Source of the DNA: Nodosilinea sp. P-1105
Lineage (GTDB): Bacteria; Cyanobacteriota; Cyanobacteriia; Phormidesmidales; Phormidesmidaceae
Direction of reading: 5' to 3'
Assembly: GCF_012911975.1 (NCBI RefSeq)
Contig: NZ_SMDQ01000003.1
Span: 62,001-126,000, forward strand
Length of the DNA: 64,000 nt
Under the pieces are notes generated by a model. It did no database searches. It saw only the letters and a list, made by a program, of their open reading frames with translations, and was not told where the DNA came from. The translations under genes and the position numbers were made by a program. Each line of letters begins with the position of its first letter. Position 1 is the first letter of the stretch. This document shows, piece by piece, positions 1,900 to 8,346 of the stretch.

Positions 1900-2670
1900 T
1901 TAGGTCAACCGCACTGGAACCTGGTGGGCTTGCAGATAAGCTTTGACCTCAGCCACAGTCAGTTGGCCGTAGTGGAGCAGCGAGGCCAATAAGGCGGCTT
2001 CCGCCTGACCTTCAGTCAGGGCTTGGTGAATGTGCTGGCAGTTACCGGCTCCCCCCGAGGCAATCACGGGTACAGGCACCCGCTGGGCAATGGTCTGAGT
2101 CAGGGCTAGGTCGTAGCCAGCTTGAGTACCGTCAGCGTCCATGCTAGTAACCAGCAGCTCGCCAGCGCCCCGACGCACCATCTCTTCGGCCCAAGCGACG
2201 GCATCTAACCCGGTGTTATCACGCCCCCCGCGCACGTACACATCCCAACCAGCGGTCTCTGCCCCTGCTCGGCGACGCGCATCAATGGCCACAACGATAC
2301 ATTGTGACCCAAAGCGATCGCTGGCTTCGTTGACAAACTCCGGCCGCTTAACCGCCGCCGAGTTAATGCTGACCTTATCGGCTCCCGCCCTTAACAATTT
2401 TTTAATTGTTTCTAAGGATTGAATGCCACCCCCGACGGTAAGCGGAATAAATACCTGCTCGGCGGTTTGGTAAACCACGTCATAAATAATGTCGCGGTCT
2501 TCGTGGGTGGCGGTGATGTCGAGGAACACCAACTCATCGGCTCCGGCCTGGTTATAGGCCTGGGCCAACTCCACGGGGTCACCAGCATCTCGCAGGTCGA
2601 CAAAATTAACCCCTTTGACCACCCGACCGGCTTTCACATCTAGGCAGGGAAGAATTCGTTTTGCCAACAT
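1900..2670 (-). CDS. hisF: Imidazole glycerol phosphate synthase cyclase subunit HisF
   Basis: HisF, 256 residues, the normal family length. With HisH it forms imidazole glycerol phosphate synthase, which uses ammonia from glutamine to turn PRFAR into imidazole glycerol phosphate and AICAR in histidine synthesis. The (beta/alpha)8 barrel is intact. The two catalytic aspartates are present: Asp11 in [17 protein letters not shown] and Asp130 in [10 protein letters not shown]. The phosphate-binding segments GGGIQSLE (about 80) and ASGGAGN near the C-terminus are also visible. The ATG at 2670 gives the canonical MLAKRIIPCLD-type start. hisH is not in the window, as is common in cyanobacteria where his genes are scattered. 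Confidence 0.97.
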
Positions 2671-2905
2671 TGCGGTTACCCAAACCTTAAAAATACGGTG
2701 CTATTACCTGGCCCACAGCGACTATCTGCCGAGGTAGCGCCCCATGGGCGTTGATTCAGGATTGCTCCCCGAGGGGAGACCCTGGCCTGGGCAATTATCT
2801 GCCACGGTAGATTTACCGCTTTACCATAGATCACTACGGGGCAAGACGCTGATAAACTGTGATCTGGTTTTATCGTTGGAATTGCAGTTGGAGCCCTTTG
2901 CAGTC

Positions 2906-3106
2906 ATGGGTTTAGAGATCGGACAGAAAGTTAAAGTTGCCCGCCTGCGCGATCGCGTCTCCCCAGACGTGGCCGACCGCCTAGGTAAAAGTGGCATCGT
3001 CAGCCAGTTCAAGATGGTAGACGGTAGTGGCATTGGTGTGGTGGTTGAATTTGACGATAAATACGCCACCTGGTTTTTTGAAGACGAGCTTTCTCCGGCC
3101 CAGTGA
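2906..3106 (+). CDS. petP: Cytochrome b6f complex subunit PetP (DUF2862, SH3-like)
   Basis: A 66-residue protein beginning MGLEIGQKVKVARLRDRVS and ending FEDELSPAQ, matching the small SH3-fold PetP family (formerly DUF2862) found in cyanobacteria and red algae. PetP is a peripheral, stroma/cytoplasm-side subunit of the cytochrome b6f complex that influences linear electron transport. The open frame extends upstream to 2744, but the family starts at MGLE, so ATG 2906 is chosen. The conserved core GKSGIVSQFKMVDGSGIGVVV and the aromatic YATWFFEDEL motif are intact. The ArsA-like ATPase follows 43 bp downstream on the same strand, then chlG, so cotranscription is plausible. Confidence 0.85.
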   Translation: MGLEIGQKVKVARLRDRVSPDVADRLGKSGIVSQFKMVDGSGIGVVVEFDDKYATWFFEDELSPAQ

Positions 3107-3149: not shown

Positions 3150-4250
3150 ATGGCACAGATTCTGACGTTTTTAGGCAAAGGGGGCTGTGGCAGTACCACC
3201 CTGGCGATCGCCACAGCCAAGCAACTGGCTCAGGCGGGGCAGCGGGTGCTGCTGGTGATTCGAGATATCAGCCCTGGGCCTGCCGTGCTGTTAAACCAAG
3301 GCTTAACCCCTGAGCCTGCCCCCCTCGGCACTAACCTCTGGGCCTTACAGGTCCACACCACCCACCTTTTAGAGAAAAGTTGGGATGATCTGAAAGCCCT
3401 GGAAACTGAATACCTACGGACTCCCCTACTCAAGGCTGTGTACGGACAAGAGCTGGGTATTATGCCCGGCATGGACAGTGCCCTAGCCCTGAACCTGTTG
3501 CGGGAGTACGATGCCAGCGGCCAGTATGACGTGATTGTCTACGATGGCACCAGCGCCATTGATACCTTGCGCATGTTTGGCCTACCAGAGATTTTGGACT
3601 GGTATGTGCGCCGCTTTCGGGGGGTATTTCAGCAGTCGGATCTGGGGCGGGTGTTATCCCCCTTTATTCAGCCCGTGTCAGCGGCGGTGCTGGCGGTTGA
3701 CTGGTCAGGGGATCTGCTCGATCAACCCACAGGGGAAGTGCGATCGCTGCTCGAGCAAGGCCGAGATGCGGTCAGTAATCCGGCCAGGGTCATGGCCTTT
3801 TTAGTCACCACCCCGGCAGCCGATGCGGTGGCCTCAGCCCGTTACTTTTGGGGCAGTGCCCAGCAGGTGGGATTAACCGTGGGGGGGGTGCTGGTCAACC
3901 ATGGGGAGCTGGCCTCAGACCAAATCGAAGCCTTTGTACCCTTGCCCCACTTTCCCATGCCGTCCCAGCAAACCCAGGGATGGGAGGCCTTGATGGCGGC
4001 GATCCCAGATCCTCAGCCCTTGGTAAGTTCTGCCCCCCACGCTACGGTAGTTGATGTGGCGGCCAAAACCGTCAAGCTGTTCCTACCCAGTTTCGACAAA
4101 AGCCAAGTGAAGCTAACCCAGTACGGTCCAGAGGTGACCGTGGAAGCCGGTGATCAACGCCGCAATTTGTTATTGCCACCCGCCCTGCAAGGACGCGCGA
4201 TCGCTGGCGCCAAATTCCAGGAACAATACCTGGTGATCTCATTTAATTAG
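3150..4250 (+). CDS. ArsA/Get3-like ATPase family protein with altered P-loop and C-terminal HSP20-like domain
   Basis: A 366-residue member of the ArsA/Get3 SIMIBI family. The N-terminal deviant Walker A reads GKGGCGSTT (residues 9-17). The signature lysine Lys10 is present, but the usual P-loop lysine (GKGGxGKTT) is Ser15. The segment after strand 2 is IRDISPGPA instead of the family DPAH switch I, and the switch II region is YDGTSAIDTLRMFGLPE (about 131-147) where ArsA/Get3 have DTAPTGHTLR. The last 55 or so residues form a beta-rich segment like the HSP20-type domain (ArsA_HSP20) found in plant and cyanobacterial relatives. ArsA/Get3 proteins target membrane proteins or drive anion export; the substitutions make normal ATP hydrolysis doubtful. 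It sits between petP and chlG, which points to thylakoid membrane biogenesis, but that is inference. Confidence 0.8.
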   Translation: MAQILTFLGKGGCGSTTLAIATAKQLAQAGQRVLLVIRDISPGPAVLLNQGLTPEPAPLGTNLWALQVHTTHLLEKSWDDLKALETEYLRTPLLKAVYGQELGIMPGMDSALALNLLREYDASGQYDVIVYDGTSAIDTLRMFGLPEILDWYVRRFRGVFQQSDLGRVLSPFIQPVSAAVLAVDWSGDLLDQPTGEVRSLLEQGRDAVSNPARVMAFLVTTPAADAVASARYFWGSAQQVGLTVGGVLVNHGELASDQIEAFVPLPHFPMPSQQTQGWEALMAAIPDPQPLVSSAPHATVVDVAAKTVKLFLPSFDKSQVKLTQYGPEVTVEAGDQRRNLLLPPALQGRAIAGAKFQEQYLVISFN

Positions 4251-4335: not shown

Positions 4336-5343
4336 ATGGCAGAACCATCCACTCCCGCTGACAACGCTGTTACCCCTGCCCCTAACCCTGAGGACCAGGG
4401 GAGCAAGGCTCGCCAGCTGTTAGGCATGAAAGGGGCTAACCCTGGCGAAACATCCATCTGGAAAATTCGCTTGCAGTTGATGAAGCCGATCACCTGGATT
4501 CCCTTAATTTGGGGCGTCGTGTGTGGGGCGGCATCCTCCGGGCAGTTTCGCTGGAGTCTAGAATACGTCTTGATTTCTGCCGCCTGTATGTTGATGTCAG
4601 GGCCCCTACTGACCGGCTACACCCAAACCCTCAACGATTTTTACGATCGCGACATCGACGCCATCAACGAACCCTATCGCCCAATTCCCTCCGGGGCCAT
4701 TTCCATTCCCCAGGTAACCACTCAAATTTTAGTATTACTGGGGGCTGGCATTGCTGTGGCCTACGGTCTAGACCAGTGGGCCGGGCACGACTTCCCCATG
4801 ATTACGGTGCTGGCTATTGGGGGATCGCTGGTGTCCTATATTTACTCAGCACCGCCCCTAAAGTTGAAGCAGAACGGCTGGCTGGGTAACTATGCCCTGG
4901 GGGCAAGCTACATTGCGCTGCCCTGGTGGGCTGGCCATGCCCTGTTTGGCGACCTCAACTGGACCATCGTGATCCTCACCCTGCTCTATAGCTTGGCAGG
5001 GCTGGGCATTGCTGTGGTGAATGACTTTAAAAGCGTTGAGGGCGATCGCCAGATGGGCCTAAAGTCACTGCCGGTGATGTTTGGCGTCAGCACCGCCGCC
5101 TGGATTTGTGTCTTAATGATTGACCTTTTTCAAGGGGGCATGGCCGCCTACCTGATGGCGATTCAGCAAAATCTGTATGCCGTGCTGCTGATTTTGTTGA
5201 TTATTCCGCAGATTACCTTCCAGGACATGTACTTTTTGCGGGACCCCCTAGGCAATGATGTGAAATACCAAGCTAGTGCTCAGCCCTTTCTGGTCCTGGG
5301 GATGTTAGTTACAGGACTGGCCCTAGGCCATGCGGGGATTTAG
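4336..5343 (+). CDS. chlG: Chlorophyll a synthase ChlG
   Basis: ChlG, 335 residues, a polytopic UbiA-family prenyltransferase of the thylakoid membrane. It esterifies chlorophyllide a with phytyl or geranylgeranyl diphosphate, the last step of chlorophyll a synthesis. The first Asp-rich motif NDFYDRDIDAINEPYRPIPSG starts at Asn100 and the second, NDFKSVEGDRQMG, near 229. Between them lies SYIYSAPPLKLKQNGWLGNY, which is characteristic of chlorophyll synthases rather than other UbiA enzymes. About eight hydrophobic helices are visible. ATG 4336 gives the usual polar N-terminal extension. It follows the ArsA-like gene by 85 bp on the same strand. ChlG is known to associate with YidC and Hli proteins, which makes the upstream ArsA/Get3-like neighbour notable. 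Confidence 0.96.
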   Translation: MAEPSTPADNAVTPAPNPEDQGSKARQLLGMKGANPGETSIWKIRLQLMKPITWIPLIWGVVCGAASSGQFRWSLEYVLISAACMLMSGPLLTGYTQTLNDFYDRDIDAINEPYRPIPSGAISIPQVTTQILVLLGAGIAVAYGLDQWAGHDFPMITVLAIGGSLVSYIYSAPPLKLKQNGWLGNYALGASYIALPWWAGHALFGDLNWTIVILTLLYSLAGLGIAVVNDFKSVEGDRQMGLKSLPVMFGVSTAAWICVLMIDLFQGGMAAYLMAIQQNLYAVLLILLIIPQITFQDMYFLRDPLGNDVKYQASAQPFLVLGMLVTGLALGHAGI

Positions 5344-7963: not shown

Positions 7964-8148
7964 GACTGACTGGCAGAGATCTGGCCACGCTTAGGGGGGA
8001 GGTCTTGGGTATCGGGTAGCAGTATCGGATGTCAGGAAGAATGCCCCACTGCTACCGCAGGGTTTCCGCTCAAGGGCCGTCACTTTCTGTCATGATCAGT
8101 CCAACGTCAACACTGACGCACCGATGTTTCTTTGGAGATGAACGTCCT

Positions 8149-8346
8149 ATGACTATGATTCTTGCCGCAGTAGGTGGTCTGCCATCTTCATTTGTGTTGG
8201 TTTACGTCGTCGGGTTTATTGCGGCAGTCACCATTGGCTCTATCGCTTGGTATAACTCGAAGCGTCCCGCTGGTTGGGAAGGCAAAGACAAGCCAGACTT
8301 TATTCCCTCGGTGAAAACAGACGACGACACCAGTGAAGACAATTAA
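8149..8346 (+). CDS. psb35: Photosystem II assembly protein Psb35-like
   Basis: A 65-residue single-helix protein. A hydrophobic segment of about 22 residues (SSFVLVYVVGFIAAVTIGSI) is followed by AWYNSKRPAGWEGKDKPDF and an acidic tail. This matches the cyanobacterial Psb35 (Ssl2148-type) family, which associates with CP47-containing photosystem II assembly intermediates; the assignment is from memory of the AWYNSKRP-GWE motif. The frame is open upstream to 8029, but ATG 8149 with a nearby GGAG and the family length support this start; ATG 8155 is also possible. It stands between the PBP gene and a minus-strand small gene. A 110-bp palindromic repeat lies downstream. Confidence 0.72.
   Translation: MTMILAAVGGLPSSFVLVYVVGFIAAVTIGSIAWYNSKRPAGWEGKDKPDFIPSVKTDDDTSEDN

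Follow-up and report, generated by a model that had tools for sequence, protein, structure and literature searches.

What does a protein of the Get3/ArsA kind do when serine stands at the position of its Walker A lysine, and why is its gene placed between one for a cytochrome b6f subunit and one for chlorophyll synthase? The gene that raises this question lies in a 64,000-nucleotide stretch of Nodosilinea sp. P-1105 DNA (the window; features are listed in Table 1). The original prediction, made from the letters of the sequence, was a chaperone for thylakoid proteins or pigment-protein assembly that is either ATP-independent or a slow switch. The answer given below draws on sequence, model fold, family survey, synteny and selection from this analysis, and on the homologue literature for the dimer, the chamber, TA protein binding and the weak ATPase.

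Table 1. Positions in the window of the genes and protein features discussed in the text
Feature	Position	Strand	Evidence
hisF, divergent, marks conserved block	1900..2670	-	TIGR00735 394.3 bits; same place in many relatives
petP, cytochrome b6f subunit PetP	2906..3106	+	NF050003 106.8 bits (cut-off 65); start by family extent
get3d (NosAFP/Get3d family), 366 aa	3150..4250	+	NF050088 545.7 bits (cut-off 325); 3igf/8egk and 8elf matches; Foldseek
P-loop, residues 9-17, GKGGCGSTT; Ser15 codon AGT at 3192-3194	3174..3200	+	Sequence, family survey
Switch I region IRDISPG, Asp39 kept, PAH lost	3258..3278	+	Alignment with paralogues reading DPAHS 20/20
Asp132, switch II / Walker B Asp	3543..3545	+	Asp in 166/177 family members
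Asn250, aligns with adenine-selecting Asn of Get3	3897..3899	+	Kept in 105/120 altered at residue 15 only, 3/43 collapsed
C-terminal alpha-crystallin (HSP20-like) domain, residues 305-366	4062..4247	+	PF17886 E = 7.8e-16; among the family's most conserved regions
chlG, chlorophyll synthase	4336..5343	+	TIGR02056 593.2 bits (cut-off 436)

Identity of the gene between petP and chlG

The open reading frame starts with ATG, and the NCBIfam model NF050088 (NosAFP) spans residues 1-365 of its 366-residue product. The nearest PDB sequences are All4481 (NosGet3d; 3igf/8egk, E = 2e-121) and AtGet3d (8elf, E = 8e-49). An AlphaFold (AF2) monomer model has a mean pLDDT of 80 and a pTM of 0.81, with low confidence for the helices at residues 171-193, and its top Foldseek matches are 8egk, 3igf and 8elf (TM 0.75-0.94), of which 8egk is the best (TM 0.87-0.90). 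The window gene is the cyanobacterial Get3d, a member of the known family Get3d/NosAFP that Barlow et al. 2023 (PMC10248533) characterised. The original prediction had not recognised this published family, to which the NF050088 match assigns the protein, but it was right about a Get3-like fold with a client-binding C-terminal HSP20-like domain: PF17886 (ArsA_HSP20) matches residues 307-365, and the model has strands over the same residues.

Two other identities were rejected. Canonical Get3/TRC40 is excluded by a TIGR00345 score of 76.4 bits (cut-off 135) and by a Walker A that reads GKGGCGST and not the deviant GKGGxGK[ST], and the arsenical pump ATPase ArsA by a TIGR04291 score of 36.5 bits (cut-off 650) and by the presence of a single half (366 aa) instead of two tandem ATPase halves. 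Yeast Get3, archaeal Get3 and ArsA share the fold and the intradimeric Walker A architecture with the window protein, but they have Lys15, a DPAH switch I and an A-loop, lack the alpha-crystallin domain and, in eukaryotic Get3, carry a CXXC. The CXXC zinc motif was found in none of 177 cyanobacterial Get3d proteins, the window protein included, whose sole Cys is Cys13. At the sequence level its A-loop is absent as well; the stretch reads MPSQQTQG, without the Glu of the invariant PL...E..G of the paralogue described below.

Closer relatives differ from the window protein mainly at the nucleotide site. NosGet3d (PDB 3IGF/8EGK) aligns over the full length, with 50-53% identity in the structural alignment and the same domains, and like the window protein has neither CXXC nor Lys15; however, its residue 15 is Arg, its P-loop is altered at other positions too, and the catalytic Asp and the adenine Asn are replaced by Glu and Ile, respectively, whereas the window protein combines Ser15 with retained Asp39 and Asn250. 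AtGet3d (At1g26090, PDB 8ELF), a chloroplast protein of about 32% identity and a long branch in the tree, has the same architecture with the alpha-crystallin domain, but it keeps the Walker A Lys and has Ile for the adenine Asn. The Sll0086-type Get3d paralogue is a second copy that is found in nearly every genome holding the first (in the window's genome at C146, L002/L233). It too has the Get3 fold and a C-terminal alpha-crystallin domain, but its identity is ~26%, it reads canonical GKGGVGKTS and DPAHS in 20/20 with an invariant active site, and it is not next to petP or chlG.

Conclusions on Get3d have so far rested on NosGet3d and AtGet3d. Get3d is a dimer with a hydrophobic chamber, in which the alpha-crystallin domain docks where Get4 binds Get3; apo NosGet3d is closed without nucleotide, and both homologues capture a TA protein and are weak ATPases (kcat 0.28 per min for NosGet3d and 1.1 per min for AtGet3d) (PMC10248533). 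We infer that the window protein would behave in the same way (dimer, chamber, TA binding and weak ATPase). The family, its fold, TA binding and weak ATPase are thus already known (PMC10248533); what is new relative to the published work is that loss of Lys15 is the norm, that there are two classes of nucleotide site, that the petP-get3d(-chlG) gene order is ancient, and that the gene is retained in genomes with decayed photosystem genes.

Residue 15 in cyanobacterial Get3d

The P-loop has Ser at the Walker A lysine position and retains the signature Lys10, just as first described. Switch I (IRD39ISPGP) had been said to lack the DPAH pattern, and the PAH is indeed missing, but Asp39, which aligns with the catalytic Asp, is still present. 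The accompanying premise that every active ArsA/Get3 has Lys at residue 15 fails, as NosGet3d has a weak measured ATPase although Arg occupies that position (PMC10248533). Nearly all relatives in the window's genus have Ser15, L009 (96% identical) among them, and get3d dN/dS is 0.05 against L009 and 0.05-0.16 within the genus, so Ser15 is not a sequencing slip and the gene is not a pseudogene. Within the genus pN/pS is 0.12 in the P-loop, 0.12 in the alpha-crystallin domain and 0.25 over the whole Get3 part; the P-loop is under purifying selection there.

How widespread is the loss of this lysine? Get3d genes were collected from 45 GTDB contigs and from phylum, family and deep-branching samples, and among the 177 distinct proteins residue 15 is Arg in 117, Ser in 20, Cys in 15, Lys in 14, Gln in 7, Thr in 2, Pro in 1 and Glu in 1. 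Because Lys is present in only 14, its loss is the norm in cyanobacterial Get3d and not the drift of one organism; the suggested check, whether this position is ever Lys, has a positive answer. Parsimony gives 27 state changes at residue 15, and 10 when it is scored as Lys versus non-Lys. Under the one-residue Mk model almost all of the tree's backbone has Arg; one Arg to Ser change falls on the branch that leads to the clade of the window protein, and changes from Arg to Lys are numerous and scattered, Lys being found again inside Arg clades in certain relatives (e.g., L035, L011); with equal rates the model favours the commonest state, so the root state is unsure. Arg codons aside, a single base separates every codon observed at residue 15, TCA excepted, from one for Arg. 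The residue has changed within the Gloeobacter-like family f45, which is believed to be without thylakoids: G353 and G362 have Lys there, and G367 and G374 have Arg.

Normal P-loops in the same gene order had been named as a finding that would count against the proposal. The motif GKGGxGK[ST] is present in the 14 Lys15 proteins, and L116, L121, L132, L156, L186 and L035 are examples with both petP and chlG adjacent, so the locus is not defined by loss of this Lys.

Two classes of nucleotide site

When the P-loops of the 177 proteins are classified with the test GKGGxGx[ST], 14 are canonical, 120 (the window protein included) are altered at residue 15 alone, and the loop of the other 43 has collapsed. 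The collapsed loops, such as LLGTTPEQQTALG and FLGQSRSSCAIAS, are spread over about 7-8 lineages and occur in proteins that retain the chamber region and the alpha-crystallin domain; the Nostoc-clade loops GKNGIARS and GKSGIART are of this type, as is that of NosGet3d (GKSGVART), the cyanobacterial homologue with a crystal structure, which also fails the test. The remainder of the site follows the same division. Proteins altered only at residue 15 retain Lys10 and Asp132 in 120/120 and Asp39 and Asn250 in 105/120 each, and the collapsed class (n = 43) retains Lys10 in 27, Asp132 in 32, Asp39 in 4 and Asn250 in 3. Even where residue 15 is uncharged and the loop otherwise intact (34 proteins), Asn250 is retained in 32 and Asp39 in 30. 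Correlated loss of active-site residues was consistent in direction on independent pairs, with only 5 supported pairs and no significance, and the contrast between the classes is largely shared descent.

Where, then, does constraint lie? Among 20 genomes with both copies, G9 is the sole residue of the Get3d P-loop that never varies, and the invariant positions of Get3d are concentrated in E101-L102-P106-G107, in W151-Y152-R154-R155 and in the alpha-crystallin domain. In the same genomes neither the P-loop nor switch I of the Sll0086-type paralogue varies.

Does the window protein still use nucleotide?

The explanation that we favour, with a probability of roughly 0.55, is that window Get3d is a holdase for hydrophobic segments with a weak, slow nucleotide switch, and that its clients may include electron-transport membrane proteins. 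Built on the Get3 fold, with a chamber for clients and with its alpha-crystallin domain docked, the protein would hold hydrophobic segments (of a tail-anchor-like kind) that are to be delivered to the membrane. Its Walker A lysine would have been replaced early in cyanobacteria, probably by Arg, and by Ser in the window's genus; with the rest of the site (Lys10, Asp39, Asp132, Asn250) retained, binding and slow hydrolysis of nucleotide most likely persist, a weak grip on phosphate making the protein a slow switch and not a nucleotide-free holdase. The collapse of the site in several other lineages, with chamber and alpha-crystallin domain kept, suggests that the shared function leans on those two parts. 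The clients would include membrane proteins of the electron-transport chain, among which b6f is suggested by the petP linkage only.

Of the two options first put forward we thus retain the slow switch, because the site is otherwise kept and the P-loop pN/pS is 0.12. The ATP-independent option would make the protein a holdase that is closed without nucleotide, with the alpha-crystallin domain gating the chamber and the P-loop a structural remnant. It accords with the closed apo state of NosGet3d (PMC10248533) and with the 43 collapsed loops, but it is doubtful for the window protein, which keeps every other nucleotide contact tested and whose P-loop is under purifying selection in its genus; moreover, Lys recurs inside Arg clades, and NosGet3d, with its collapsed-type P-loop, still shows weak ATPase (PMC10248533). 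The shared Get3d function may nonetheless never need nucleotide, as 7 or 8 lineages have lost the site. A broader proposal, which we think rather unlikely, is that cyanobacterial Get3d is escaping nucleotide control: Lys would have gone early and the entire site on about 7-8 independent occasions, and the alpha-crystallin-gated chamber would work on, possibly for b6f, whose petP gene is the neighbour of get3d, or for the small single-helix subunits of that complex. The natural series Lys, Arg, Ser/Cys and collapsed asks whether a Get3 chaperone needs its ATPase.

Linkage to petP and chlG

Family matches (NF050003 and TIGR02056) bear out the original assignment of petP upstream and chlG downstream, both on the strand of get3d; the petP start is probably ATG 2906 and not the listed start of the ORF at 2744-3106. 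The same order was found on comparison across genomes: of 99 get3d loci, 90 have petP upstream in the same orientation, at a median gap of 94 bases, and 61 have chlG downstream. The petP-get3d(-chlG) order is ancient, and the linkage to petP is tighter than that to chlG. For Synechocystis there is support for the statement that ChlG and YidC work together (PMC6175206); a link of Get3d to ChlG-YidC was not found in the literature examined. Barlow et al. 2023 (PMC10248533) do not mention petP or chlG, nothing beyond that paper was found on Slr1794, All4481 or NosAFP, and Slr1794 is not named in the main texts (supplements aside) on native complexes and on ChlG complexes. A promoter scan gave nothing informative. 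A few kb 3' of chlG, beyond a PBP1A-family gene, the window encodes the photosystem II assembly protein Psb35 (8137-8346, + strand; NF047378, 96.5 bits).

Distribution, losses and reduced genomes

In a 291-genome sample of the phylum, ChlG is present in 140 genomes, PetP in 140 and Get3d above cut-off in 104. The ChlG-bearing genomes without Get3d number 36 (counted from the tables), are 1.6-3.7 Mb in size and all belong to family f20, presumably picocyanobacteria. In f20 petP lies directly before chlG, and in four genomes that were read hisF is divergent upstream, so that the block is the usual one minus get3d. The ChlG-bearing f20 genomes show joint loss of both Get3d copies (no match at 1e-20), and several f20 genomes carry two or three PetP-like matches.

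Retention at the other extreme is seen in G141, G177 and G262, whose size and gene decay make them look like photosystem-less endosymbionts. Here psaA/psaB and psbA are decayed or absent, get3d is open with a dN/dS of 0.17-0.27, and petP and petA are intact. G141 (2.8 Mb, no psaA/psaB match) has a chlG with 8 in-frame stops (G141:C1:1973986-1974786, L184) beside intact get3d and petP. The PsaB of G353 matches 7f4v at full length, which we take to be that of Gloeobacter violaceus, and G353 to be this species. Gloeobacter violaceus is not known to have thylakoids. Its Get3d has Lys15 and is encoded away from petP and chlG.

A strictly photosystem-related role is weakened by the three genomes with decayed photosystem genes, and a strictly thylakoid role by G353, though its get3d does not adjoin petP or chlG. 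We infer from the distribution that get3d is not tied to photosystems and is dispensable in small-genome species; it is probably older than thylakoids and, given gene order and distribution together, probably closer to petP than to chlG. The chaperone part of the original proposal is therefore kept, and its chlorophyll and photosystem link is weakened by intact get3d in the three decayed genomes, by its absence from small ChlG-bearing genomes and by the greater frequency of petP than chlG beside it. Hints on function come from the petP link, from the small genomes in which get3d is cleanly missing between petP and chlG, and from its retention amid photosystem decay.

The same observations bear on the idea that Get3d ferries lipid or pigment between membranes and ChlG, its hydrophobic chamber serving small molecules and not transmembrane helices. 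A ~750 Da molecule, built as a phospholipid, co-purifies with AtGet3d (PMC10248533) and chlG is often the downstream gene, but this reading is improbable: the charges that contact the lipid are not conserved according to the authors, both homologues tested bind TA protein (PMC10248533), 36 genomes have ChlG without get3d, and in G141 chlG is broken while get3d stays intact and, in comparison with the sister genomes, shows purifying selection. That Get3d is a relic heading for loss, with Ser15 mere decay, is very improbable in spite of its absence from all 36 small f20 genomes and its widely varying active-site residues, since by count the remaining 104 ChlG-bearing genomes of the sample have it, it evolves at a dN/dS of 0.05-0.16 within the genus, it has invariant alpha-crystallin and chamber-region residues, and reduced genomes whose photosystem genes have decayed still carry it.

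G046 (f7 g17, 3.8 Mb, one contig) has psaA/psaB and about ten psbA-type matches, but petP, chlG and a get3d of the NosAFP type gave no match there; of the two Get3d copies it has the Sll0086-type paralogue alone, and the whole neighbouring block seems to be missing, perhaps through an assembly gap. Four genomes of family f1 (G291, G304, G322 and G297) have three Get3d-type matches each and not two.
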